A stretch of 17,147 nt of DNA. It comes from an uncultured bacterium (GTDB lineage: Bacteria; Bacteroidota; Bacteroidia; CAILMK01). Positions within the stretch are counted from its first letter, which is position 1; each line of letters starts with the position of its first letter. The DNA lies in contig CAILMK010000743.1 of assembly GCA_903835275.1 (NCBI GenBank), forward strand, positions 1 to 17,147, given 5' to 3'. A program made the translations under genes and the position numbers. The notes beneath the pieces are model-generated. The model did no database searches, was not told the origin of the DNA, and was given only the letters and a program-made list of their open reading frames with translations. Of the stretch, positions 1,189-16,702 are shown in pieces.

Positions 1189-1200
1189 CTAATTAATCTT

Positions 1201-1208
1201 TACCTTTG
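1201..1208 (+). promoter_or_regulatory. Bacteroidota -7 promoter element TACCTTTG
   Basis: This matches the Bacteroidota housekeeping sigma -7 consensus TAnnTTTG. No convincing -33 TTG lies at the usual spacing; the nearest TTG, 1169-1171, is 29 bp away. Only seven bases separate the element from the ATG at 1216, so the transcript would have almost no leader. Confidence 0.55.
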
Positions 1209-1215
1209 CACCTTA

Positions 1216-1911
1216 ATGAGAAAAGCACTTTTATTTTTACTTACCCCCGTGCTGTTTTCTGCATGCAATTCTTCAAAAGAGGCTGATGCACAAAGCACTA
1301 AGGAAAAAGGATACATAGTAGCCACCTATCATCGCTCCATTGAATTCGGGGATATGGGAGCCGCTATTTATAGCATACAGTCCCTCCTGTCCCGGGATAC
1401 TGCCAATTATAGCTATTATGATTCGCTGGCAATCCTGTATTATAATTCGCGGAATTACCCCCAGGCATTGAAAGCTGCTGATAAGGCAATCATTAAATAT
1501 CCAAACGAGGAAAAGCTGCTTCGTCTCATGGCGGACGCGGCTAAAAAAATGGACAGGGATGATCTTGCCTTGCCTTATTTCCTGAAGCTTATAGAGATCA
1601 CGAAGGATCCGAAAATTCAATATGAAGCCGCTGTTTCCGAGTTTTACAGCAAACATTATGATGATGCTGAAAAAGCGGTCAACACAACCCTGCAAACCCC
1701 CGGCACAGAAAAGGTTTATGTAAAAATAATTGCCGATGGCGGCAAACAGCAGGACGTGCCTCTGCATGCCGCGCTATATAACCTCCTCGGATTCGTCCGT
1801 GAAAAACAAGACAAAAAGCCGGAAGCCGCGGATTGCTATAAAAAAGCACTTGATATTTTCCCTGACTTTATCCTCGCAAAAAATAACCTTGAAGCAATTA
1901 ACAAAAAATAA
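1216..1911 (+). CDS. TPR-repeat lipoprotein (first of a tandem pair)
   Basis: The 231-aa product begins with a lipoprotein signal peptide: basic MRK, a hydrophobic core, and lipobox LFSAC with Cys17 as lipidation site, so it should be anchored in a membrane facing the periplasm. The mature part is alpha-helical TPR: NYSYYDSLAILYYNSRNYPQ-type helices near residues 65-85, then units with A-x-KAI-x-KYPN and a final one ending YKKALDIFPDF. TPR proteins scaffold protein interactions; no partner can be named. The next gene follows after 8 bp and encodes a paralogue, so the two are probably one operon. A -7 promoter element lies just before the start codon. No enzymatic motif is visible. Confidence 0.8.
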   Translation: MRKALLFLLTPVLFSACNSSKEADAQSTKEKGYIVATYHRSIEFGDMGAAIYSIQSLLSRDTANYSYYDSLAILYYNSRNYPQALKAADKAIIKYPNEEKLLRLMADAAKKMDRDDLALPYFLKLIEITKDPKIQYEAAVSEFYSKHYDDAEKAVNTTLQTPGTEKVYVKIIADGGKQQDVPLHAALYNLLGFVREKQDKKPEAADCYKKALDIFPDFILAKNNLEAINKK

Positions 1912-1919
1912 ATAATACG

Positions 1920-2699
1920 ATGAAATATACACTTTCCCTTTGCATTATCGCCGCACTATTCCTTGGTGCATGTAAAAACGATAAATCCGCTTCTAAAAAC
2001 GGCGCGGAAAATATCTCAGTCGCAAAAGATGACAATGCCATCGCGCTGAATAAAAAAATATTCGCAATGGCTACCCATAACAAGGATTTTTACACTGCCT
2101 TGTATGCAGCCAATGCTATCATCGCGCTGGATAGCGCGAATGCCGGAACGTATTATGATACGCTGGCAACTATCTACGCCGGACTTAACCAAATAGAAGC
2201 AGCGAGCCAGATGGCAAATAAAGTACTTGCCAAGGATCCGAATAACAGAAAAATGCTTGAGATAAAGGCAAGCAGCGCGGCTGCAACCGGTGATATGGCA
2301 AACGCCATGACGATCAGCAAGAAACTCTATGAGATCAGCAAGGAGCCTAAATATCTTTTCAATATAGCTACGCTGAATATACAGGCAGGTAACTACGGCG
2401 AAACTGAATCCACACTGGATCAGCTTGAAAAAGATCCGCGCTATGGCAAGGATTCCGTGGAAATGCCGGGCCAGCGCCAGGGACAATTCCAGAGAATACC
2501 ATTGGAAGCTGCGGTGATTTATCTGCGCGGTAACCTGGACCTCAGCAAGAACCGTATCATGGAAGGCGCTACCAAAATAAAACAGGCTATTGACCGCTTT
2601 CCTAATTTCTACCTGGCAAGAAGGGACATGCAAATGATACAACAAAGCATGCAACAACAGCAAGCCAAGGGCGGACCGCAAGGACCTCCGAGAAAATAA
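1920..2699 (+). CDS. TPR-repeat lipoprotein (second of a tandem pair)
   Basis: This 259-aa protein has a lipoprotein signal with lipobox LGAC (Cys18), then a low-complexity spacer and TPR helices. It aligns by eye with the preceding gene over its length: DSANAGTYYDTLA versus DTANYSYYDSLA, IYEISKEPK-like versus IEITKDPK, and IDRFPNF versus LDIFPDF near the C terminus, so it is a diverged tandem duplicate. A 12-residue Q/R/M-rich insert (PGQRQGQFQRIP) precedes the last repeats. The C terminus is a tail rich in Gln, Gly and Pro (QQSMQQQQAKGGPQGPPRK). Probably co-transcribed with the first copy. The function is unknown; a periplasmic scaffold role is inferred from TPR architecture and membrane anchoring. 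Confidence 0.8.
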   Translation: MKYTLSLCIIAALFLGACKNDKSASKNGAENISVAKDDNAIALNKKIFAMATHNKDFYTALYAANAIIALDSANAGTYYDTLATIYAGLNQIEAASQMANKVLAKDPNNRKMLEIKASSAAATGDMANAMTISKKLYEISKEPKYLFNIATLNIQAGNYGETESTLDQLEKDPRYGKDSVEMPGQRQGQFQRIPLEAAVIYLRGNLDLSKNRIMEGATKIKQAIDRFPNFYLARRDMQMIQQSMQQQQAKGGPQGPPRK

Positions 2700-2777
2700 C
2701 TGAACCTCTTCGCCTGCCGAAGTGTTGAATAGCGGATACATCATTTATCCACTACTCACAACCTTATTTCCTATTGA

Positions 2778-5633
2778 ATGAGCGCTAAGAAAAAAGCACC
2801 TGTTATTCCTCCTGAAAACATTGAAGGTGGCAGCATTGAGGTATTTGGTGCCCGCGAGCATAACCTGCAAAACGTTGATCTTGTATTGCCACGCAATAAG
2901 CTCATCTGTTTTACGGGGCTTAGCGGCAGCGGAAAGTCATCACTGGCATTTGATACCATCTACGCGGAAGGGCAGCGCAGGTACATGGAAACTTTTTCCG
3001 CGTATGCGCGGCAGTTCATGGGCAATATGCAACGCCCGGACGTTGACAAGATCAATGGGCTCAGTCCTGTAATTTCCATAGAGCAAAAAACGGTCAGTAA
3101 AAATCCGCGTTCCACGGTAGGAACCATCACAGAAATATATGATTTTCTCCGCTTGCTGTATGCAAGAAGTTCCGATGCGTATAGCTACGTAACGGGTAAA
3201 AAGATGGTGCGCTTTTCCGATGAACAAATTGTTGCTGCCATTAATGAGCGCTTCAAGGGACGCTCCATTTATATGCTTGCACCATTGGTAAAGGGACGCA
3301 AAGGACATTACCGTGAATTATTTGAAGGCTTGCAAAAAACCGGATATACACGTGTACGTGTGGATGGGGATGTGCAGGATATTGTTCCCAAGATGCAACT
3401 GGCACGTTATAAGATTCATGATATAGAATTGGTGGTGGACCGCATAAAAATTGGAGAGGCGGGAGAATCACGACTTCGTTCCTCCATGGATCTTGCCTTA
3501 AAACAAGGAAAAGGAACACTTTCTGTCCTGGATATAGACGATGATAAGCTCTATCATTTCAGCCGCAATTTGATGTGCCTGGATTCGGGTATTTCCTATG
3601 ATGAACCCCAGCCAAATACTTTTTCATTTAACTCTCCAAACGGCTGGTGCCCCAAGTGCAAAGGGCTGGGATTTACCTACCAGTTTGAAATGGAAAATAT
3701 TTTTCCTGATACCAGTCTCAGCATACGCAGCGGTGCATTGGCTCCATTCGGAAAAGAGATAGACGCCTGGAATATGGCTGTCATGAAAGCCATAGGTAAA
3801 AAACATAATTTCAAACTGAACGATGCGGTAAAAGGCATTTCCGAAGAAGGAATCCAGGAGATACTTTATGGAAGCGAAGAAAAATTAACTGTTGAATATA
3901 ATTACTCTGAATACAGTGTTGAAAACGGCGGACTGGTGCAATATTTTCAGGATATTCTAATAGGCAAAACTGCTTCTCCATTAAAAGAAACCTTGGAAGA
4001 ATATGGCAGTCTTGCTGATTGTCCGGATTGTCACGGTTACCGATTAAAACAGGAAGCCCTTTATTTCAAGGTTGGTGAAAAACACATCGGTGAATCTGCC
4101 CTGTTAGAGTTGGATGATTTCAATAAATGGATCGAGGAAATTGACAAGGGACTCGATAAAAGAAGCCGACCGGTCGCCGGAGAAATACTCAAGGAAATAA
4201 GAACACGCACACAGTTCCTGCTGGATGTAGGGTTGAATTATCTTAACCTTAACAGGCCCGCATTTTCGCTCTCCGGTGGAGAAGCGCAACGCATACGCCT
4301 TGCTACGCAAATTGGTTCCCAACTGATAAACGTAACCTATATCCTCGATGAGCCGAGTATCGGACTTCATCAAAGGGATAATATCAGGCTGATAAATTCA
4401 CTGAAAAACCTGCGCGATATTGGCAATACAGTCATTGTTGTAGAGCATGACAAGGACATGATCCTTGAATCGGATTATGTAGTCGACATTGGTCCCGGTG
4501 CGGGTACACATGGCGGCAAAATTGTTGCCGAAGGAACCGTGGAACAAATACTGAAAACGAATAGCGTTACCACGCAATACCTGAACGGATCCAGGGAAAT
4601 AAAAACTCCCGAAATACGTAGCCAGGGCAATGGAAAATTTCTTGAAATAAAAGGATGTACAGGACATAATCTGAAAAATGTTTCCGTGAAATTTCCATTG
4701 GGAACATTGATCTGTGTAACGGGTGTTTCCGGCAGCGGAAAATCTACACTGATTACAGATACTTTATATCCGATCCTTAAAAAACATTTTTTTCGCGGAG
4801 CTTCACTTCCGCTTCCCTACAAAAGTATTGAAGGATTAAAAGAGTTGGATAAGGTTATAGAAATAGACCAGAGTCCCATAGGAAGAACTCCGCGAAGTAA
4901 TCCTGCTACCTATACCGGATTATTTACGCACATAAGAAATTTATTCGCGCTTCTTCCTGAAGCAAAAATACGCGGCTACCAGCCCGGCAGGTTTTCATTC
5001 AATGTAAAAGGCGGACGCTGCGAAGATTGTGGAGGCGCGGGATTGAAAACCATAGAAATGAATTTTCTCCCGGATGTATATGTGGAATGCCCGACATGTT
5101 TCGGAAAGCGCTATAATCGCGAAACCCTTGAAGTTCGTTATAAAGGAAAATCCATCTCCGACGTACTGGATATGAAGGTGGAACATGCCGTAGAATTTTT
5201 CGATAAAATCCCGCAGATAAAAAAGAAAGTGGATACCCTGTTGGAAGTTGGGCTCGGGTATATCAGTCTGGGGCAATCCTCCACTACCCTTAGTGGTGGA
5301 GAAGCGCAACGCGTTAAGCTAGCCACTGAACTTTCCAAACGTGATACAGGGAAAACTTTTTACATCCTTGATGAGCCTACTACGGGCTTGCACTTTGAAG
5401 ACATTCGGATACTGATGGAGCAGATAAACCGTCTGGTTCAACGCGGAAATACCGTCCTTATTATTGAACATAATATGGACGTAATTAAACTCGCCGACTG
5501 GGTAATAGACTTAGGCCCTGAAGGCGGTGGTGGCGGAGGAAAAATCCTTGCCGAAGGCACACCTGAACAAGTGGCGAAACATAAGACCAGTCATACCGCT
5601 GTATTTTTGAAGAAAGAATTGGCCGGGAAGTAA
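2778..5633 (+). CDS. uvrA: UvrABC excinuclease subunit A
   Basis: UvrA is the damage-recognition ATPase of nucleotide excision repair; as a dimer it scans DNA and loads UvrB. At 951 aa it is full length. Both ABC modules are intact: Walker A GLSGSGKS (K53) and GVSGSGKST (K655), ABC signatures LSGGEAQR at 498-505 and 838-845, and Walker B ILDEP with D524 and D865. Zinc-binding CxxC pairs are at C291/C294, C415/C418, C748/C751 and C771/C774, all unbroken. A Gly-run near the C terminus (about 920) is normal for the family. The gene starts 78 bp after the lipoprotein pair with no convincing promoter or terminator between, so read-through is possible. Composition (29 of 60 bases GC at 5221-5280) is typical of the housekeeping part of the window and contrasts with the next two genes. 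Confidence 0.98.
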   Translation: MSAKKKAPVIPPENIEGGSIEVFGAREHNLQNVDLVLPRNKLICFTGLSGSGKSSLAFDTIYAEGQRRYMETFSAYARQFMGNMQRPDVDKINGLSPVISIEQKTVSKNPRSTVGTITEIYDFLRLLYARSSDAYSYVTGKKMVRFSDEQIVAAINERFKGRSIYMLAPLVKGRKGHYRELFEGLQKTGYTRVRVDGDVQDIVPKMQLARYKIHDIELVVDRIKIGEAGESRLRSSMDLALKQGKGTLSVLDIDDDKLYHFSRNLMCLDSGISYDEPQPNTFSFNSPNGWCPKCKGLGFTYQFEMENIFPDTSLSIRSGALAPFGKEIDAWNMAVMKAIGKKHNFKLNDAVKGISEEGIQEILYGSEEKLTVEYNYSEYSVENGGLVQYFQDILIGKTASPLKETLEEYGSLADCPDCHGYRLKQEALYFKVGEKHIGESALLELDDFNKWIEEIDKGLDKRSRPVAGEILKEIRTRTQFLLDVGLNYLNLNRPAFSLSGGEAQRIRLATQIGSQLINVTYILDEPSIGLHQRDNIRLINSLKNLRDIGNTVIVVEHDKDMILESDYVVDIGPGAGTHGGKIVAEGTVEQILKTNSVTTQYLNGSREIKTPEIRSQGNGKFLEIKGCTGHNLKNVSVKFPLGTLICVTGVSGSGKSTLITDTLYPILKKHFFRGASLPLPYKSIEGLKELDKVIEIDQSPIGRTPRSNPATYTGLFTHIRNLFALLPEAKIRGYQPGRFSFNVKGGRCEDCGGAGLKTIEMNFLPDVYVECPTCFGKRYNRETLEVRYKGKSISDVLDMKVEHAVEFFDKIPQIKKKVDTLLEVGLGYISLGQSSTTLSGGEAQRVKLATELSKRDTGKTFYILDEPTTGLHFEDIRILMEQINRLVQRGNTVLIIEHNMDVIKLADWVIDLGPEGGGGGGKILAEGTPEQVAKHKTSHTAVFLKKELAGK

Positions 5634-5658
5634 AAATCGAAATATCAAGTTAAACAGT

Positions 5659-5678
5659 TATTTTTGTTTTTGTTTTTG
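5659..5678 (+). promoter_or_regulatory. Putative -7 element overlapping a TTTTTG x3 hexamer repeat
   Basis: TATTTTTG at 5659-5666 fits TAnnTTTG and would drive the ATPase gene starting at 5692. It runs into three perfect copies of TTTTTG (5661-5678). No TTTG -33 box is evident upstream. Copy-number change of the hexamer would alter the promoter-to-start region. Confidence 0.4.
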
Positions 5679-5691
5679 AAGATAATATACT

Positions 5692-6855
5692 ATGGAAAAG
5701 CTGACAATCAAGAACTTTGGACCAATAAAGGAAGCATCGCTTGATCTAAAAAGACGCAATGTTTTTATTGGACCCCAAGCGAGTGGTAAAAGTACAATTG
5801 CCAAATTAGTTGCGATTTTCAGAGAGCCCGGTTTTCTATTGGATGGTAATAATGATCTTAAATTTTATAAGGATCTGAGAATTGATGGATTCTTTAAAAA
5901 AGACACAGTTATTAATTATCAAAGCGAGCAATATAATTATGATATTGAAGTAAGAAATGAGCCTTTAATCCATAATATTAATATTAATAGCCACTTCAAA
6001 ACAACTATTCTGAGCATAAAGAATGATCTTGAATCTGCAACAAATCAGTTAGCGCAATCTGATAAAAGAGATTTAGATTCTCTTAGAGAACTGCATCGCC
6101 AAAGGAGCAATCAATTGCAAGGTATGAGATATTTAACCTCTAGCAATCCTCTTTATATACCAACTGAAAGATTCTTAATTTCAACAGTTGCTGATTCAAG
6201 CTTTAATTTTTCTGACCCAAATTCATTGCCTGAATATCTTACTAATTTTGGCAAAATTTTTCAATTAATAAGAAACAATGCTTTAAACTCTTTCACTTCA
6301 AATATTTTAAATGTCGAATATAGATTTGAAGGAGGGAGAGATAAGGTTTACATTAACGAGTCAGAATACGTATTTCTTGCTGACTCTGCAAGTGGATATC
6401 AAGCACTCCTCCCTACAGAAATAATAATTTCATATTTAACAGAAGCTGGTCATCCTAAAACTTTTATCATAGAAGAACCCGAATTGAATTTATTTCCCGA
6501 AACACAAAAAAGATTCATCTACTACTTATTAAATAAATGCCGAGCAAATGATGATCTTTTTCTTACTACTCACAGCCCATATATTTTAAGCTCATTAAAT
6601 ACCCTCCTGTTTGCTTGGAAAGTTGCAAATAAATTTCCGGAAAGGATTGAAGAAATAGATGCTATTATTCCAATTAAATCCTGGATAAATCCTGATGAAT
6701 TTTCTGCTTATTATGTGGGGGACGGAACTGTTAAAAGCATTATCGATGATTCTACAGGAATGATCGGCGAAAATTTATTAGATGGAATTTCCGAGGATTT
6801 AGCAGGGGAATTTGATGCCCTTATGTCTATCTATAAGAGAAAGAAAGCAGCATGA
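5692..6855 (+). CDS. ABC/AAA-type ATPase of an ATPase-nuclease pair (candidate defence protein)
   Basis: This 387-aa protein has the fold signature of RecF/SMC-like ATPases (AAA_15/AAA_21 groups): N-terminal KLTIKNFGPIKEA, Walker A GPQASGKST with K33, an inserted region with a probable helical segment (about 105-150), the YIPTER motif at 155-160, a signature-like ASGYQ at 233-237, Walker B FIIEEPELN with E261/E262, and the H-loop TTHSP with H294. These are complete, so it should hydrolyse ATP. No TOPRIM domain follows, unlike OLD-family and GajA proteins; only ~90 residues lie beyond the H-loop. The stop overlaps the start of the next gene (ATGA), so the two products likely act together. DNA is much more AT-rich than uvrA (15 of 60 bases GC at 5941-6000), suggesting recent acquisition. 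A nucleic-acid sensor in a two-gene immune module is an inference from architecture. Confidence 0.85.
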   Translation: MEKLTIKNFGPIKEASLDLKRRNVFIGPQASGKSTIAKLVAIFREPGFLLDGNNDLKFYKDLRIDGFFKKDTVINYQSEQYNYDIEVRNEPLIHNININSHFKTTILSIKNDLESATNQLAQSDKRDLDSLRELHRQRSNQLQGMRYLTSSNPLYIPTERFLISTVADSSFNFSDPNSLPEYLTNFGKIFQLIRNNALNSFTSNILNVEYRFEGGRDKVYINESEYVFLADSASGYQALLPTEIIISYLTEAGHPKTFIIEEPELNLFPETQKRFIYYLLNKCRANDDLFLTTHSPYILSSLNTLLFAWKVANKFPERIEEIDAIIPIKSWINPDEFSAYYVGDGTVKSIIDDSTGMIGENLLDGISEDLAGEFDALMSIYKRKKAA

Positions 6856-7376
6856 GGAATCAGATTGCAAATGCTTTTCCTGATAAAGTACAAAACCAAT
6901 GCTTAGAGGTTCAAACAAGTCAGGAATTCCACATCTATGATAGTGATGAGGGCAAAAGCAAAATTTGCGAGAATGATGAGCCGATACATTTCTCAGTGAT
7001 TAATCCAAATAGGAAAAGCATCTATTTCCTTGCTGTTGATAAATGCCTGATTTCAGATGCGGATGGGATAAAAAGATGCGATTGTGCTGTATTTGATGAT
7101 TCAACATTTTGCTTTGTTGAAATCAAAACCCTTACGACGGCAATACATAATCATCGTAATAAACAGCGCAAAGAAGCCCGGGAACAACTAAGAGTCACAA
7201 TCCAGTTATTTAAAGAACAGATCGATTTTGACAAATATTCAATTGAAGCACTCCAATGCGTAGGTTTTGAGGAACCAACACCCGCTTTTTCTGCCCGCAG
7301 TGAAAATGAAAAAGTGAAGTTCATGGATGAATTAGGTGTAGATTTACTGGAAGGTAACGAGAAGATTTTCAATTAA
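6852..7376 (+). CDS. Small protein with PD-(D/E)XK nuclease signature, partner of the ATPase
   Basis: This 174-aa protein has no signal peptide. The central segment CDCAVFD followed by FCFVEIKT places D77 and E90-x-K92 in the spacing and beta-strand setting of the PD-(D/E)XK nuclease active site; a helix with AREQL (Gln112) follows, like the QL helix in RecB- and REase-like folds. The rest is not recognised. It starts inside the stop codon of the ATPase gene (4-bp ATGA overlap), a sign of coupled translation and a stoichiometric complex. I infer that the ATPase senses a signal and licenses cutting by this protein. Neither an HNH (Septu) nor a TOPRIM (PARIS, Gabija) effector is present. An alternative is a non-defence DNA-processing role. 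The nuclease assignment rests on one short motif, so confidence in it is moderate. Confidence 0.7.
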   Translation: MRNQIANAFPDKVQNQCLEVQTSQEFHIYDSDEGKSKICENDEPIHFSVINPNRKSIYFLAVDKCLISDADGIKRCDCAVFDDSTFCFVEIKTLTTAIHNHRNKQRKEAREQLRVTIQLFKEQIDFDKYSIEALQCVGFEEPTPAFSARSENEKVKFMDELGVDLLEGNEKIFN

Positions 7377-7390
7377 ATCATCACAAATAA

Positions 7391-7415
7391 AAAGCGGGCT
7401 TACAGGGCCCGCTTT
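7391..7415. terminator. Hairpin terminator after the ATPase-nuclease pair, probably bidirectional
   Basis: A perfect 9-bp stem AAAGCGGGC / GCCCGCTTT with a 7-nt loop begins 14 bases after the nuclease stop codon. On the minus strand it is followed by a T-rich tail, on the plus strand only by the TTT of the stem, so it may serve both convergent transcripts. Confidence 0.7.
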
Positions 7416-7451
7416 CAGATATATACAAATCGCTTAGAGTAATCAAAATAA

Positions 7452-7487: not shown

Positions 7488-7742
7488 TTACCACCTCCTG
7501 CCGCAACGGCCATGGTAGTAATATCCCCTCTCGCAGCGTCCACCACGGTAGTATCCATAACCACCACCATAACAAGGACGGCCAACTACGACACGCGGAC
7601 CAAAACCGCAACCAATCCCAAAGCCTGCGTGTACAGCGTAACCGCCGCGATGGAATTCCCTGGGTCCACAATAACCATAAGGGCGCGCAAATAATCCGGT
7701 GCTTAGGATGAGGGCTGTAGCTAATACGAATAAAGTTTTCAT
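7488..7742 (-). CDS. Small secreted Gly/Tyr/Arg/Cys-rich protein
   Basis: I start at the ATG at 7742 (84 aa), not the longer frame opening at 7877, because MKTLFVLATALILSTGLFA is a textbook Sec signal peptide and the 45 preceding residues look like translated intergenic DNA. The mature peptide of about 64 residues is extremely rich in Gly, Tyr and Arg, with five Cys (in GYCGP, GIGCG, RPCYG, GRCER and GRCGR) and a basic aromatic end GRCGRRW. This composition recurs in short exported proteins of Bacteroidota that have no known function; a surface or periplasmic structural role is a guess. It has its own terminator at 7452-7482 and a possible -7 element at 7790-7798. Confidence 0.65.
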   Translation of the reverse strand: MKTLFVLATALILSTGLFARPYGYCGPREFHRGGYAVHAGFGIGCGFGPRVVVGRPCYGGGYGYYRGGRCERGYYYHGRCGRRW

Positions 7743-7789
7743 AGCTTTCAATTTTTTAGTTATTACGGATATAGATTCAAATGGTATGC

Positions 7790-7798
7790 CAAAGTTTA
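7790..7798 (-). promoter_or_regulatory. Possible -7 element TAAACTTTG
   Basis: On the minus strand TAAACTTTG has the TA...TTTG form with a 3-nt spacer instead of 2. The same nonamer occurs as the -7 of the large T9SS gene (12637-12645). It would give a leader of about 40 nt to the start at 7742. Confidence 0.3.
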
Positions 7799-7873
7799 AA
7801 ATGGATGATTTTGGATTTAAGATTTGCGATCGGAAACCGATAATAGCATAGGGTTTCAACTCTATCTGCCTAT

Positions 7874-8233
7874 TCATCCCACAAAAGCATCCCTGATATG
7901 ATATATATCGGGCTCGTCCTTTTTCAGGATGATTGAAACGATATCAAACCTCAGTTCCTTGTTAGGCTGCTTCAGGTACAGGTATTCCTGTGCCGCCTTT
8001 ATAATATTGGCTTGCTTGGATTTTTTAACGGCTGCCTCAGGCCATCCGAAAGCCTCCGTACTCCGTGCCTTCACTTCAACAAACACAATGGTATCCTTTT
8101 CCTCCATGATGAGGTCTATCTCGCACCTGCCGTGCCGCCAGTTACGCTCCAATAGTACGAAACCGTTCAGGATTAAATAAGCAAGCGCCATGTCCTCACC
8201 CTTATCGCCTGTTTTTCTGTTGGATGTTTGCAA
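7874..8233 (-). CDS. yraN: YraN / UPF0102 family endonuclease-like protein (TTG start)
   Basis: This 119-aa protein matches the UPF0102 family in length and motifs: TGDKGED near the N terminus (E13), CEIDLI with D40, and FVEVKAR with E53-x-K55, forming a PD-(D/E)XK site, then the conserved RFDIVSI strand at 95-101. The family is widespread and poorly characterised; a role in DNA processing or recombination is proposed but not firmly shown. The start is unusual: no ATG precedes the conserved GDKGE region, and an in-frame stop lies just upstream at 8267-8269, so the TTG at 8233 is the best start and gives the usual short N-terminal tail. It is divergent from the gene at 8269, and the two share a 35-bp intergenic region. 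The small secreted gene lies 131 bp downstream. Confidence 0.9.
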   Translation of the reverse strand: MQTSNRKTGDKGEDMALAYLILNGFVLLERNWRHGRCEIDLIMEEKDTIVFVEVKARSTEAFGWPEAAVKKSKQANIIKAAQEYLYLKQPNKELRFDIVSIILKKDEPDIYHIRDAFVG

Positions 8234-8258
8234 TTTGAATTTTGATTGATTATATTTG
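8227..8258 (+). promoter_or_regulatory. Bacteroidota promoter TTTG-N20-TATATTTG
   Basis: -33 element TTTG at 8227-8230 and -7 element TATATTTG at 8251-8258, 20 bp apart, match the Bacteroidota consensus well. The -33 box lies inside the first codons of the divergent yraN. It fixes the start of the next gene at 8269, since the upstream ATG at 8242 would lie within the promoter. Confidence 0.7.
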
Positions 8259-8268
8259 TATAAGCATT

Positions 8269-8799
8269 ATGAAAATATCTATATCCACCTTACTTGTTTT
8301 TTTCCTGCTTTCAGGGAATTTGTTTGCCCTTGGCCATAAGGATCCACGTGAAAGTATGCACCCTAAAAAATCCGAGTACAAATTAAGCAAAAAAGAATTC
8401 ATGGCAATGTACGGTAAGGACGATTCTGCGAAAGCCCTTATCAATGTCTTTTTCCGTGACAGGAGAATTGGCTTTTATGTCCTTCCTGCATACCCGATCA
8501 TTGCAATTATCAACGGGCTATCCGTGCCTAAACCGAATATTGGAGATATAACACTTGGCAATACCCGTATGTTGAGTGCCGTTGCCGGAATTACTTCACT
8601 TGCCGGAGGATATTTCCTGCTTACTTCCACACGGAAGGAGCTCTATAAGGAATTAAAATATTACGAGATCACAGGGCATATTTCTGATGAATACAGTACG
8701 CAGGTAAAAGGCAAGTTATACCGGATGAACAAGGCTTGCAAAGTAGTACCTGCAACTACGACACCTGCTAATGGTGGTACGGTTCCCCCTTCAAAATAG
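8269..8799 (+). CDS. Hypothetical exported or membrane protein
   Basis: I do not recognise the family. The start is taken at 8269 (176 aa), giving MKISISTLLVFFLLSGNLFA, a signal peptide with cleavage after a FALG-like site; the ATG at 8242 lies inside the promoter. The mature protein has a basic region KKSEYKLSKKEFMAMYG, then two hydrophobic stretches (about residues 70-88, FYVLPAYPIIAIINGLSV, and 99-118, around AVAGITSLAGGYFLL) that may be membrane helices, a charged helix RKELYKELKYYEITG, and a Thr/Pro-rich tail ending TPANGGTVPPSK. The layout suggests an inner-membrane or envelope protein. Its last 32 bp overlap the 3' end of rlmH on the other strand. Confidence 0.7.
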   Translation: MKISISTLLVFFLLSGNLFALGHKDPRESMHPKKSEYKLSKKEFMAMYGKDDSAKALINVFFRDRRIGFYVLPAYPIIAIINGLSVPKPNIGDITLGNTRMLSAVAGITSLAGGYFLLTSTRKELYKELKYYEITGHISDEYSTQVKGKLYRMNKACKVVPATTTPANGGTVPPSK

Positions 8800-9235
8800 T
8801 CATACATCTATATAGCTGTTCCAGGAAGATCAAGCGCACCATTTGATGCGTGAAGGTCATTTCCGAAAGTGCAAGTTGCGCATTCGCACGTTTATAAACT
8901 TCTTCATGGAATCCATACGCGCCGCCGGAAAGGAAAATAATATTGCCCTGGGTGGCATTGAATTTTTTCTGCATCCAAACGGCAAATTTTTCAGAGGAAT
9001 GCAGTTCCCCTTTTTCATCCAGTAAAATCAGAATATCTGTGGACTTAAGAAGTTTGTAGATCTCTTCTTTTTCATTGGCACGATGTGTATCGGCATTCGC
9101 GTTTTTAGCTTTGGAAGCAGGCAATTCCCTGTACTGAAAACTAAGATAGGGCTTGAGCTTTTTGATGTAGATGGCACTACCTTCTTCAAGGTAAGAATCG
9201 TCTGTTTTTCCGATGCACCAGTATTCTACTTTCAT
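8768..9235 (-). CDS. rlmH: 23S rRNA pseudouridine-1915 N3-methyltransferase RlmH
   Basis: RlmH uses S-adenosylmethionine to methylate the pseudouridine at position 1915 in helix 69 of 23S rRNA on assembled 70S ribosomes. The 155-aa length is exact for this SPOUT-fold family. The SAM-binding knot is visible: LILLDEKG at 69-76, FLSGGAYGF at 101-109, then the C-terminal run LSEMTFTHQMVRLIFLEQLYR and the terminal GEPYHH, the family hallmark. Its ATG overlaps the stop of the upstream thioesterase gene (ATGA, 4 bp), so the two are translationally coupled. The 3' end overlaps the convergent gene at 8269-8799 by 32 bp, leaving no room for a separate terminator. Confidence 0.97.
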   Translation of the reverse strand: MKVEYWCIGKTDDSYLEEGSAIYIKKLKPYLSFQYRELPASKAKNANADTHRANEKEEIYKLLKSTDILILLDEKGELHSSEKFAVWMQKKFNATQGNIIFLSGGAYGFHEEVYKRANAQLALSEMTFTHQMVRLIFLEQLYRCMTILKGEPYHH

Positions 9236-9696
9236 TGTTTATTCTTTCCTTCTATCACTGCCATGATGGAATAACCTTTCGCTATCAGGCTATATTCCCC
9301 GTCCTTGATCACATATATTTCTGACTCACAATAATGCAAACGTGAACCCGCTTTTATCACCCAACCCCGGGCAAAAACAGTATCTCCTCTTCCCGGCGAA
9401 AAATAAGATACTTTCAGATCTGAAGTAACTACGCGGTCATCTTTTTTTACCAGTGAAAATGCAGCAAAACCTGTCACGAGGTCTGCAATGGTGGCAGTTA
9501 CTCCACCATGTACCAAACCATCCTGTTGTAATAAATGCTGCTTTAATGGAGCAGAAGCCTCTGCATATCCGGGAAGTATTTTTGTTAATTCAAAGCCGTT
9601 ATGATGCATAAAATGCTGACGGGAAAGTTTATCCTCAATCAGCTTTTTAAACTCCGGATTTTGTGCTTCGTATTTTATTGGTGCTTCGAAATTCAT
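9232..9696 (-). CDS. PaaI-like hotdog-fold thioesterase
   Basis: This 154-aa protein carries the 4HBT/PaaI hotdog signature: HHNGFELTKILPG, then the central helix GLVHGGVTATIADLVTGFAA at 60-79 with H63-G64-G65 and D72 in the catalytic-acid position, followed by TSDLKVSYFSPGRG. Members hydrolyse acyl-CoA thioesters, often aromatic or medium-chain; the substrate cannot be told. I choose the ATG at 9696 over the GTG at 9720: the extra eight residues are encoded by part of a 9-bp tandem repeat (9709-9735), an intergenic-type sequence. GGGAAAA upstream of the ATG may help ribosome binding. The stop overlaps the rlmH start. map lies 102 bp upstream on the same strand, so a map-thioesterase-rlmH transcript is likely. 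Confidence 0.85.
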   Translation of the reverse strand: MNFEAPIKYEAQNPEFKKLIEDKLSRQHFMHHNGFELTKILPGYAEASAPLKQHLLQQDGLVHGGVTATIADLVTGFAAFSLVKKDDRVVTSDLKVSYFSPGRGDTVFARGWVIKAGSRLHYCESEIYVIKDGEYSLIAKGYSIMAVIEGKNKQ

Positions 9697-12528: not shown

Positions 12529-12614
12529 TAGACTAATATTTATAACTGCATAATAATCAATGAAAAATTAATTTTCGTATATCCATATTTACCGACAAAT
12601 GCCAAAAAATGACC

Positions 12615-12645
12615 TTGGTCAGCCTTATATTTCTTGTAAACTTTG
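12615..12645 (+). promoter_or_regulatory. Promoter of the T9SS protein gene, TTG-N19-TAAACTTTG
   Basis: TTG at 12615-12617 and TAAACTTTG at 12637-12645 are 19 bp apart; the -7 has a 3-nt spacer. It supports a start at 12686 and not the ATG at 12599, which lies upstream of the promoter. Confidence 0.5.
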
Positions 12646-12669
12646 TATCGTGATAAAAAAGTTTACAGG
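12633..12669 (+). promoter_or_regulatory. Long inverted repeat covering the -7 element
   Basis: A perfect 10-bp inverted repeat, TGTAAACTTT / AAAGTTTACA, with a 13-nt spacer, extended by one G-U and one C-G pair. The left arm contains the -7 element, as for a repressor operator; as RNA it would be a hairpin partly at the 5' end of the leader. Confidence 0.6.
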
Positions 12670-12685
12670 CCAAAATGAAAATATT

Positions 12686-15600
12686 ATGAAAAATACAGCC
12701 TTCTTCCCTTGCCAAAAGATAGCCTTAGTAGTATTGTTTTTGGGATTATTTTCCCTTAGTACCCGTGCACAACTGAGCGGGACTTATACGATAGATAAAA
12801 GCAAAGCCGCATCTTCTACAAATTACACAAGCTTTAATGATGCAGACTCGGATCTAACCTATGGAAGCCGTGCAAACGGAGCCGCCGCGAACGGAAAAGG
12901 AGTGAGTGGGGCTGTTGTATTTAAAATTGCCGATGGAACGTATCAAGAGCAAGTGCGGATTCCTTATATCACAGGTAGCTCTTCTACAAATACTATTACT
13001 TTCGAAAGCGCATCAAATGATAGTAGCAAAGTAATTTTAACATGGCCTGCGTACTACAAAGGAGGAAACTATACACTTGAATTAGATAGTGTTTCAAATT
13101 TGATTATTAAAGGAATTACGGTTAAGAGAACTTCTAATAATTCTTACACTTTAGCAGTAGTGATTCGATTAAAAAGCTTTCTTTCCAATATTACATTTTC
13201 AAATAACCGCCTCATTGGAATTAATTATTCTTCTGCTTCAGACAGCAGCGATATTATATACGGCTCACAGTCTTATTTTCCCAACGGGAATTTGATCAAT
13301 GTAAAATATATTAATAACCACTTCTGGTATGGATATTATGCAATTTACAATGCAAATCCGTCGGCGAATTATCCAAATAGAAATATTACGGTATCATCAA
13401 ACATTTTTGACAGTATCGTTTACACTGGAGCATATATAAGAGGAGATAGTGGATTAATCCTTTATGGTAATATGTTCAGGAGTCATAATAGCTATGGTGC
13501 AGTTGGATTTAGTATTGCAAACTTCAAGAATCCTGTAATCACAAATAATAAAATTTATTCAAACGATAACGGAATGCTCTTCTACAGTAATGGAACTTAC
13601 AAGACACATGGAATTATTTCCAATAATTTTATTGTAAGTACAGGGGCAGCAGGTATCGAAATGGGAGACAATAAAAATATTGATATATTACACAACACAA
13701 TAGTTGCTAAAAAGTGGACATTTAATCTAAATAATAGTAGTGCGTCAAGTGATTCAAATTATACAATATATAACAATATCCTTTATGGAGATTACATTTA
13801 TCTTGTAGAATATACTCTTCCCATGAGGCTTAACAATAATTGTTATTATTCCAGAACTTCTACCATAGGAAATTATGCCGGAAATCCCGCATATACATTG
13901 TCAGACTGGCAAGGTTATACTACGGAAGATTCTAATACAATTGTAAAAAAACCAACCTTCACATCAAGTACCGATCTTCATGTGTCGGATACTTTCCTAA
14001 ATCATGGCAAATATTTTTCTTCCGTTCCAACGGATATAGACGGACAAACAAGGAATACAACCAACCCTACTATTGGTGCTGATGAAATAGCTCACAAAGC
14101 CACATCTTGTATGTCGGGTACGTATTCTATCGGCGGAGCAAGTGGAGATTATGCAACATTCAGGTCAGCAGTGAGTGATTTAAAAACATACGGAGTCTGC
14201 GGACCGGTTGTATTCAATATTGCTGATGGAACCTATAATGAAAAAGTAAGGATAGATTCTATCGTTGGATCGTCAGCAACCAATACTATTACATTCCAAA
14301 GTGCTTCGCATGACAGTAGCAAGGTGATTATGTCCTGGCCTGCAGATACTGGGATATATTCCGACTACAATAATTATGTTCTGCTTCTTGAAAATTCCAG
14401 CTATATCACGCTAAAAGGAATCAGCTTCGAAAGGCCTCATCCGGTTCAAAACGGGGCAGGCGCCAGGTCAATTTACCTAAGAGGAACTCATGATGTCAAA
14501 ATACTAAATAATTATTTTAACGGAGGAAAAGTTGTTCCATATAAATACGACTATAGCTACATGATAGATGGATTTGGTTCGCATGATATACTGGTTTCAT
14601 CCAATCACTTTAAGAATGGCTATATGGGTGTTGCTCTTTATGATTCAACATTGGGTACTCTTCATTTGAAAGGAATAGTTATTGAGAACAACATAATGGA
14701 TACCAGTATTGCCGGAATTAGTCTTACCGGTATCAGTGAAGCGAGGATTCGATCCAATGTGTTCATGAGTTCTGATACATTTTCATCTACGCAGGCCATT
14801 GAAATTGACAATAACGGAACCGGAAATCCGGATTCAAGCAATATCATTATTGAAAAAAATAAAATAGTTTATGCAGGAACCGGAATTAACTGGTCAGGTA
14901 AAGGATATTGCCGAATTTCAAACAATTCAATAATTATTTTGCAACGCTCATATACCGGAGCAGCAGCAATGGGCTTATTTTCATGGGACTCCACAAGTAC
15001 AGTGGACATATTAAATAATTCAATATATTCGATAAGCGGACAAGAATGTCTTTTGATGCAGAAGTCACCGCCATCTACAAACATTACCAACAATATTTTT
15101 TCTGGTACCGGCTATGGAATTGACATTTCCGGCAGTATTCCAAAAATGCAGAGCAATGCTTATCACTTACCTGTTTCGGGTTATTTTATAGCGGCGTACA
15201 ATAAGACTCAATATAATTCTCTTTCTTCATGGCAAACAGCCATCGGTACAGATTCAAACTCCATAGTTGTGAATCCAATGTTTGCAAGCGCCTTGAATCT
15301 TACTCCCGCCAATAGTTCACTGAATGTTGGAACTCCGCTTAGCAATATTCCGGATGATATAAATAATGTTACCAGAAATACAATCCATCCTACCATTGGT
15401 GCTTATGAAATTGCATCGACTTCAAGTTCCACCCCTCCCACTGCCCGCTTCTCATCAGCATCAAAAGCTTGCCGCGGTGATTCTGTAAAATTCAAAGACA
15501 GTTCCACTTATACAGGAATAGATAGCATCACGACATGGGCTTGGAATTTCGGAGATGGAAATACTTCATCCCTGCAAAATCCGATTCACCAGTATTTTCA

Positions 15601-16702
15601 TGGAGGAATATTTACCACTACATTAATTGTAACTACCCTCAGCGGCGGCAAGGATACTATAAGCGTAAGCATGCTTATTGATTCCACTTGTGTATGGCCG
15701 GGAGATGTTAACTATGACAAAGTAGTGGATGTACGTGATATCCTTCCTATTGGCGTGGAATACGGCACTACAGGACCTCAGCGGGCAAATGCAAGCATCC
15801 ATTGGGTGGGACAACCATGCAGAAACTGGGGTGATACTATCTCTTATGGCGTTGACTATAAACATGGGGATTGCAATGGGGACAGCACCATCAATGGGTC
15901 AGATACTACGGCAATACTTGCCAATTATTCTCTTACACATTACAAGAAGGCTGGAATGTATAAGGGCGGCCCTAATGATCCGGTTTTATCGCTTCAGTTT
16001 TCAAAGGATAGTTTCGCAGCCGGAGATACTGCCAAGGCAGATATATTGCTCGGCACATCTGCTGTTCCTGCAAATGGTGTGTATGGATTTGCATTCAGCC
16101 TGAATATGAATCCTAAACTGATTGATACAAATTCACTATCCATAAATTTCGCGAGTACATGGTTCACTCCGGATGCAAAATATATTACCATCACCAAGCA
16201 ATTCAAGGGCGATGGAAGAATTGATATGGGCATTACCCGTATAGATAAAATACCAAAAAGTGGTTACGGAAAAATAGGTACCATGGTCATTGTAATTGTA
16301 GATAATATCGCAGGAAAACGTTTTGTAAAACAAAGCCTGCCGCTGATGTTTGAAAATGTTGAAATCGTGGACAATCACCTGCATGATATTCCATTCAGCG
16401 CCAATAATGATTCGGTAATTGTCTATCAATTCAAGGATGGAATTGATGAAAACGAATATGTAAATGAAAACATTCACGTATACCCGAATCCGGCGAAAGA
16501 CAAAATCAACATCGAAACGAAAGAGATGAATATCCTCAGTGTAAAAATCTCTGATGTATTAGGCAAGCAAATGAGCTTTGTAAAAATAAACGGACAAAGC
16601 AATTGTACACTCTCCACTCAAAACCTGAAGAACGGAGTATATATACTTGAAATAAATACTACTAAAGGCACAAACAAAATGCGCCTGATAATACAGGAAT
16701 AG
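12686..16702 (+). CDS. Large T9SS-exported beta-helix / PKD / dockerin-like / cohesin-like protein
   Basis: The 1338-aa protein starts with a signal peptide (cleavage after TRA, residue 28). Two homologous domains follow (about 31-471 and 477-910), each opening with SGTYxI, then VVFxIADGTYxExVRI and GSSxTNTITFxSAS, and continuing as Asn/Ser-rich coils typical of right-handed parallel beta-helices; each closes with NPTIGADEIA or HPTIGAYEIA. A PKD domain covers about 918-1002 (WAWNFGDGN, NPIHQY). Two dockerin-like Ca loops follow, D1007-N1009-D1011-D1015-D1018 and D1062-N1064-D1066-N1070-D1073. Residues 1100-1247 look cohesin-like (AGDTAKADILL, GVYGFAFSLN, GKIGTMVIVIVD). The end (from VYPNP at 1265) is a type A sorting domain, LKNGVYILEI near the terminus, for T9SS export and cell-surface attachment. 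Substrate is unknown; polysaccharide or adhesion is a guess. The start at 12686 is set by signal peptide and promoter. Confidence 0.88.
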   Translation: MKNTAFFPCQKIALVVLFLGLFSLSTRAQLSGTYTIDKSKAASSTNYTSFNDADSDLTYGSRANGAAANGKGVSGAVVFKIADGTYQEQVRIPYITGSSSTNTITFESASNDSSKVILTWPAYYKGGNYTLELDSVSNLIIKGITVKRTSNNSYTLAVVIRLKSFLSNITFSNNRLIGINYSSASDSSDIIYGSQSYFPNGNLINVKYINNHFWYGYYAIYNANPSANYPNRNITVSSNIFDSIVYTGAYIRGDSGLILYGNMFRSHNSYGAVGFSIANFKNPVITNNKIYSNDNGMLFYSNGTYKTHGIISNNFIVSTGAAGIEMGDNKNIDILHNTIVAKKWTFNLNNSSASSDSNYTIYNNILYGDYIYLVEYTLPMRLNNNCYYSRTSTIGNYAGNPAYTLSDWQGYTTEDSNTIVKKPTFTSSTDLHVSDTFLNHGKYFSSVPTDIDGQTRNTTNPTIGADEIAHKATSCMSGTYSIGGASGDYATFRSAVSDLKTYGVCGPVVFNIADGTYNEKVRIDSIVGSSATNTITFQSASHDSSKVIMSWPADTGIYSDYNNYVLLLENSSYITLKGISFERPHPVQNGAGARSIYLRGTHDVKILNNYFNGGKVVPYKYDYSYMIDGFGSHDILVSSNHFKNGYMGVALYDSTLGTLHLKGIVIENNIMDTSIAGISLTGISEARIRSNVFMSSDTFSSTQAIEIDNNGTGNPDSSNIIIEKNKIVYAGTGINWSGKGYCRISNNSIIILQRSYTGAAAMGLFSWDSTSTVDILNNSIYSISGQECLLMQKSPPSTNITNNIFSGTGYGIDISGSIPKMQSNAYHLPVSGYFIAAYNKTQYNSLSSWQTAIGTDSNSIVVNPMFASALNLTPANSSLNVGTPLSNIPDDINNVTRNTIHPTIGAYEIASTSSSTPPTARFSSASKACRGDSVKFKDSSTYTGIDSITTWAWNFGDGNTSSLQNPIHQYFHGGIFTTTLIVTTLSGGKDTISVSMLIDSTCVWPGDVNYDKVVDVRDILPIGVEYGTTGPQRANASIHWVGQPCRNWGDTISYGVDYKHGDCNGDSTINGSDTTAILANYSLTHYKKAGMYKGGPNDPVLSLQFSKDSFAAGDTAKADILLGTSAVPANGVYGFAFSLNMNPKLIDTNSLSINFASTWFTPDAKYITITKQFKGDGRIDMGITRIDKIPKSGYGKIGTMVIVIVDNIAGKRFVKQSLPLMFENVEIVDNHLHDIPFSANNDSVIVYQFKDGIDENEYVNENIHVYPNPAKDKINIETKEMNILSVKISDVLGKQMSFVKINGQSNCTLSTQNLKNGVYILEINTTKGTNKMRLIIQE
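12776..14093 (+). repeat. First copy of the duplicated beta-helix domain (coding)
   Basis: Residues 31 to about 470 of the T9SS protein. It shares an ordered set of motifs with the second copy but has diverged at DNA level, so the duplication is old. It carries an insert ANGAAANGKG absent from copy two. Confidence 0.75.
14114..15418 (+). repeat. Second copy of the duplicated beta-helix domain (coding)
   Basis: Residues 477 to about 911 of the T9SS protein. The opening SGTYSIGGASGDYATF is the canonical start of this domain type, followed by the same ADGTYNEKVRI and TNTITFQSAS blocks as copy one. Confidence 0.75.

Follow-up and report, generated by a model that had tools for sequence, protein, structure and literature searches.

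In this work, we analyzed a 17,147-nucleotide stretch of DNA from an uncultured Bacteroidota bacterium (contig CAILMK010000743.1, referred to at its full length as the window), focusing on two open reading frames (ORFs), ORF A and ORF B, located directly 3' of uvrA and encoding a predicted ABC-type ATPase and a predicted PD-(D/E)XK-like nuclease. According to profile matches, the pair belongs to PDC-M29, a catalogued family of candidate defense systems, and it likely constitutes a two-gene antiviral module of this type, in which the ATPase would control the nuclease, infection would license it, and phage propagation would be stopped. A preliminary description of this DNA had proposed such a two-gene cassette as a candidate defense system, and our findings support a conserved cassette, with defense as the best reading, alongside the absence of the pair from the corresponding site of a same-genus genome.

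Both genes are present and intact, overlapping in ATGA as first described, and their GC content (32.7% in ORF A and 37.1% in ORF B, versus 44.0% in uvrA) agrees with the AT-richness attributed to the pair. Its features are as follows:

5692..6855, + strand: ORF A (PDC-M29A), 387 aa, predicted OLD/Rad50-like ABC ATPase (Pfam, PADLOC, structure model)
5770..5793, + strand: Walker A motif GPQASGKS, beginning at G27, with K33 in 63/64 aligned rows and a gap in the remaining row
6463..6483, + strand: Walker B motif FIIEEPE, with both glutamates (E261/E262) in 64/64 aligned rows
6571..6573, + strand: H-loop H294 (TTHSP), in 64/64 aligned rows
6688..6744, + strand: conserved C-terminal stretch NPDEFSAYYVGDGTVKSII of ORF A, residues 333-351, identified by its conserved columns and aligning with the PD-T4-4_A-type protein of locus L092
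6852..7376, + strand: ORF B (PDC-M29B), 174 aa, predicted PD-(D/E)XK-like nuclease (PADLOC, structure model, motifs)
7077..7127, + strand: putative active site C76-D77 ... E90-x-K92 of ORF B, near-invariant, located at or immediately preceding the predicted strands 78-81 and 85-92

Searches against PADLOC placed PDC-M29A at the top of the 100 families matched by ORF A at E <= 1 (E 5.7e-44), with the match divided into three stretches, the best of them at residues 259-381, and with AriA, NsnB, PD-T4-4_A, GajA and PtuA among the lower-scoring families. ORF B matched two PDC-M29B models (E 3.6e-21 and 6.9e-10) over residues 13-166, and NCBIfam returned nothing above cut-off. PDC-M29 is listed in PADLOC-DB 2.0 as a phage-defense candidate with components PDC-M29A and PDC-M29B; its name was not found in the literature searched, and PDCs have been presented as putative candidate systems derived from 'guilt-by-embedding', most of them without validation (PMC12988326). 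The window pair shares the gene order of the family, whose members usually have the same one-base junction, and its ORF B is a more distant member, scoring 73-74 bits versus 154-210 for the 17 best rows of the PDC-M29B model search, other rows of that search scoring below the window. The system had initially been regarded as undescribed; this novelty claim fails, as both genes match an already named system and the ATPase plus PD-(D/E)XK logic has been published for WonAB and PD-T4-4. The cassette is thereby placed in a catalogued family of defense candidates.

The two genes are paired across genomes. In a phylum-wide sample of 395 genomes, 29 matched the PDC-M29B model, and an A-like ATPase adjoins B directly upstream on the same strand in 29 of the 30 loci obtained, window included; the sole exception (L030) contains stops within its match and carries no ATPase. 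A is split in two pieces in L012 and L021, and B is truncated in L025. A scan of named genomes yielded seven loci (Spirosoma, Arcicella, Fibrella, Dyadobacter, Cytophagales and Cytophagaceae records), with A upstream in 7/7. Conversely, the search from A, scoring up to four first-look candidates per genome, found a relative at E <= 1e-30 in 10/395 genomes including that of the window, and B adjoins A in all ten; the B model had a match in nine of them as well, whereas in the remaining one (G391, locus L117) the adjoining B is divergent and was detected with the A2 profile (E 3.2e-11). In the protein database, the two closest relatives of A and the two closest of B come from contigs of matching lengths, 239,315 and 106,444. 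The first base of B is the last sense base of A in 16/20 relative loci. Furthermore, A and B distances among 36 pairs with long ORFs were correlated (r 0.86), with 0/2000 permutations as high in a Mantel test that is rough and uncorrected for shared species history (excluded were L012, L021, L025, L030, L092 and, as repeats, loci L113-L116 and L118-L121). Thus, the two PDC-M29 genes adjoin each other in nearly every case and have diverged in parallel, an outcome in favor of the conserved pairing that had been anticipated.

ORF A matched the Pfam families AAA_15 (4.1e-22), AAA_21 (4.2e-12) and AAA_23, all above cut-off, and its structure model (pLDDT 90.3, pTM 0.88) has a fold similar to Rad50. 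Besides the Walker A, Walker B and H294 residues, which had been recognized from the outset, R160 is kept in 64/64 aligned rows. In Pfam, with hits considered up to E 10, no TOPRIM family was listed for either protein and no HNH family for ORF B; ORF A returned AAA/ABC-type families and ORF B nothing above cut-off, in line with an effector of neither kind.

ORF B was confidently modelled as a PD-(D/E)XK-like nuclease (pLDDT 91.3, pTM 0.89), and one weak Pfam match, to HSDR_N_2 (E 0.04), covers the putative active site. D63, C65, C76, D77, K92 and Q112 are kept in 79/79 rows of the close ORF B alignment and E90 in 78/79; in a wider set of 28 proteins, C76, E90 and K92 are kept in all, C65 and Q112 in 27, and the D77 position is occupied by D in 26 and by E in two. 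Alignments A2 and A3 were made without L034 and L036, A3 comprising 65 of the 111 proteins P0130-P0240, and A4 comprised 63 of the 119 proteins P0011-P0129. Because they are conserved across the aligned rows, the motifs of both proteins are no accident at the sequence level, the D77...E90-x-K92 motif of the preliminary description among them. The nuclease core expected for ORF B was favored as well, less strongly than the pairing.

The structural matches of ORF B include the nucleases FokI, EcoT38I, BspD6I, EndoMS, Avs3/Avs4 and Can2/Card1, which points to an alternative within the same module, namely that ORF B destroys incoming phage or plasmid DNA in a restriction-like manner instead of acting as an RNA-directed, growth-arresting effector. 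The weak HSDR_N_2 match is consistent with such a DNA nuclease, as are weak matches among ORF B relatives to Cas4_II (L003) and HEC-02B (L027, L041), and the type I restriction genes adjoining some relatives. Conversely, a fold by itself leaves the substrate undecided, and in WonAB, whose logic is the closest among studied systems, overproduction of the nuclease WonB inhibited translation and left genomic DNA intact (PMC12137116). We therefore consider a DNA-degrading ORF B a plausible but somewhat doubtful alternative, and by analogy to WonAB an RNA substrate, with a translation block, is slightly favored over DNA.

We favor an ATPase-licensed, infection-aborting nuclease because of the WonAB parallel and of an ATPase scaffold that appears to be shared among systems with exchanged nucleases. 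ORF A would assemble into an ATP-dependent, OLD/PtuA/AriA-type dimer, holding and controlling ORF B; an infection signal would alter the nucleotide state of ORF A, freeing or licensing ORF B, which would then cut nucleic acid and halt phage propagation. Host growth would probably be halted too, i.e., abortive infection. By analogy to WonA, the NPDEFSAYYVGDGTVKSII stretch of ORF A is a candidate nuclease-docking region. The PDC-M29B signature, in which D63-x-C65 and C76-D77 precede the ExK site, also invites the speculation, to which we give little credence, that the two conserved cysteines form a metal- or redox-gated catalytic pocket and that the family is a mechanistically distinct ATPase-licensed nuclease; the trigger and substrate would in that case be unlike those of WonAB, PD-T4-4 and Septu.

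Comparison with related genomes provided the site with and without the cassette within one genus, the relevant features being:

5634..7389, no strand assigned: approximate extent of the cassette, from the uvrA stop to the hairpin, missing at locus L085 of the same-genus genome G395, where synteny is otherwise kept to either side
7390..7416, no strand assigned: hairpin belonging to the older intergenic region between uvrA and 7491-7877, not specific to the cassette, with a counterpart directly after uvrA in G395

In G395 (99% complete), window positions 1190-5621 align at 73% identity, followed on the same contig by 7687-7812; the gap between the aligned blocks is ~2.07 kb in the window versus ~0.32 kb in G395, and the missing piece is the A-B cassette. 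The terminator attributed to the cassette is not its own, since the same hairpin directly follows uvrA in cassette-free G395; moreover, it is terminator-like on the minus strand only, and one such site is not above chance (shuffled mean 1.7). Therefore, insertion of the cassette between uvrA and a pre-existing hairpin is the most likely course, its loss in G395 being the less probable alternative, as the same-family genomes G396 (67% complete) and G397 (95%) gave no B match either. The repeat search reported no pair on the two sides of the cassette, and the tRNA search came back empty. B is present in 3/60 relatives, own genome included. Among 12 genomes of the window's order, the sole other match is G399 (L040, L061), on a contig different from that of its uvrA; its B resembles the core PDC-M29 clade by sequence, and so the order seems to hold PDC-M29 in two forms.

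Two further observations concern this site. On the minus strand, 7491-7877 encodes a short glycine/tyrosine-rich, secreted-looking protein with no Pfam match, whose counterpart after uvrA in G395 is shorter and diverged. In addition, block 7980-9690 has the opposite orientation in the same-genus locus L085 and precedes the uvrA block there, which places a rearrangement boundary between ~7812 and 7980, near the cassette.

Regarding genomic context, 115 flanking proteins of 20 relative loci matched 275 PADLOC families at E <= 1e-15 (families, not proteins), and 112 control proteins from other places in 17 of the same 20 genomes matched 68, none of these in more than one protein; both sets of stretches were hand-picked, the controls non-randomly, and 8/20 loci come from one genus. 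Among the 25 families listed for the neighbors, the fullest were the candidates PDC-S05 (5 members) and PDC-S13 (4), followed by families of type I restriction and of specificity subunits (3 each). Ten of the 115 neighbors, chosen by size or place, were scanned singly, revealing defense genes near the pair in 5/20 loci, four of type I restriction and one HEC-01: a type I restriction endonuclease directly adjoins the pair in L042, L043 and L050, a specificity subunit does so in L044 (L042-L044 all being from one genus), and a HEC-01-type ATPase lies two genes away in L046. No match at E 1e-15 was obtained for the remaining five. By eye, the seven named-contig loci resemble ordinary chromosome. 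Two Spirosoma loci share the genes flanking the pair and a Cytophagales metagenome-assembled genome shares one side (L032, L033, L035; by eye), which suggests long keeping of the pair at that site; the common flanks of the Spirosoma loci indicate that it can be stably kept.

In the window itself, no known defense gene was found beside the pair (Pfam, eight neighboring ORFs), and the neighbors are ordinary: uvrA (named in the preliminary description), UPF0102, a SPOUT methyltransferase and a thioesterase. Defense is therefore supported by the context of the family, in which restriction genes adjoin some members, and not by the surroundings of the window pair.

The patchy distribution, the gene overlap and the small size of the nuclease would also suit a toxin-antitoxin or element-stabilizing pair without a phage role, with ORF B as toxin and ORF A as regulator, and the WonAB nuclease is indeed toxic when in excess of its ATPase. 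Nevertheless, that toxicity requires an active ATPase, unlike that of an antitoxin-checked toxin (both points from PMC12137116), no ORF B relative was found in 72,556 plasmid records (E 1e-5), and the family is catalogued as a defense candidate with restriction genes beside some members, all of which makes such a pair unlikely. A Rad50/SbcC-like repair or housekeeping role together with uvrA, suggested by the ORF A fold and by the position of the pair, is very improbable given the absence of the pair from the corresponding site in G395, the lack of a B match in G396 and G397, its rarity among relatives, its other neighbors elsewhere and its GC content below that of uvrA.

Other features of the window were noted as well. 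Positions 1-961 encode the terminal part of a larger protein, including a GH-E (HNH/ENDO VII) nuclease domain (PF14410, 8.5e-25), which overlaps an ankyrin-repeat ORF at 473-961; the region resembles the tip of a polymorphic toxin next to its immunity protein, is AT-rich (33.2% GC), and precedes the G395-aligned block, which begins only at 1190. The UPF0102/YraN-type protein at 7877-8233 on the minus strand (PF02021, 1e-27), ~500 bases from ORF B, is presumably another small PD-(D/E)XK protein; its profile similarity to ORF B is short and weak. The plus strand encodes, at 12599-16702, a protein of 1367 aa in which beta-helix and PKD domains occur together with a secretion-system C-terminal sorting domain.

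Among known systems, the nuclease partner in PARIS AriAB and Gabija is TOPRIM, as in OLD, whereas the window pair gave no TOPRIM match. PtuB of Septu is an HNH protein, as is the partner in retron-associated PtuAB, and titles on retron IA mention an HNH nuclease; in contrast, ORF B has D...ExK and no HNH match. The closest tested systems, by analogy of their logic, are WonAB and PD-T4-4. WonAB, from the WASA-1 prophage of Vibrio cholerae, is described as an operon of two genes, one for an OLD-type ABC ATPase and one for a PD-(D/E)xK-fold nuclease, both required, with protection depending on ATPase residues K34, R182, E300 and H333 and nuclease residue K71, and with models in which the complex forms via the C-terminal extensions of the ATPase (PMC12137116). 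The window pair has the same architecture, and it is in architecture that we liken the two. The WonAB authors also assign the system to a wider group in which ABC-ATPase sensors are coupled with nucleases, noting a similarity to PD-T4-4 (PMC12137116), an Escherichia coli system described as an ATPase with a PD(D/E)XK protein (PMC10952713). ORF A matches PD-T4-4_A at E 3.5e-16, a far poorer fit than that to PDC-M29A, and its residues 254-356, from Walker B to the C-terminal stretch, match the PD-T4-4_A-type protein of L092 (hhalign probability 96.9%), whose partner has, by eye, a similar CD...CELK motif. ORF B gave no PD-T4-4_B match up to E 1, and hhalign returned a probability of 0.7% against one PD-T4-4_B-type protein. 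Since the ATPases are related and the partner proteins are not detectably similar, the sequence comparisons fit one ATPase scaffold with exchanged nucleases. Taken together, our results name precise residues for a first functional test and suggest that the PDC-M29 pair, with WonAB and PD-T4-4, fits a broad class of systems that join a single ABC ATPase scaffold to nucleases that can be swapped.
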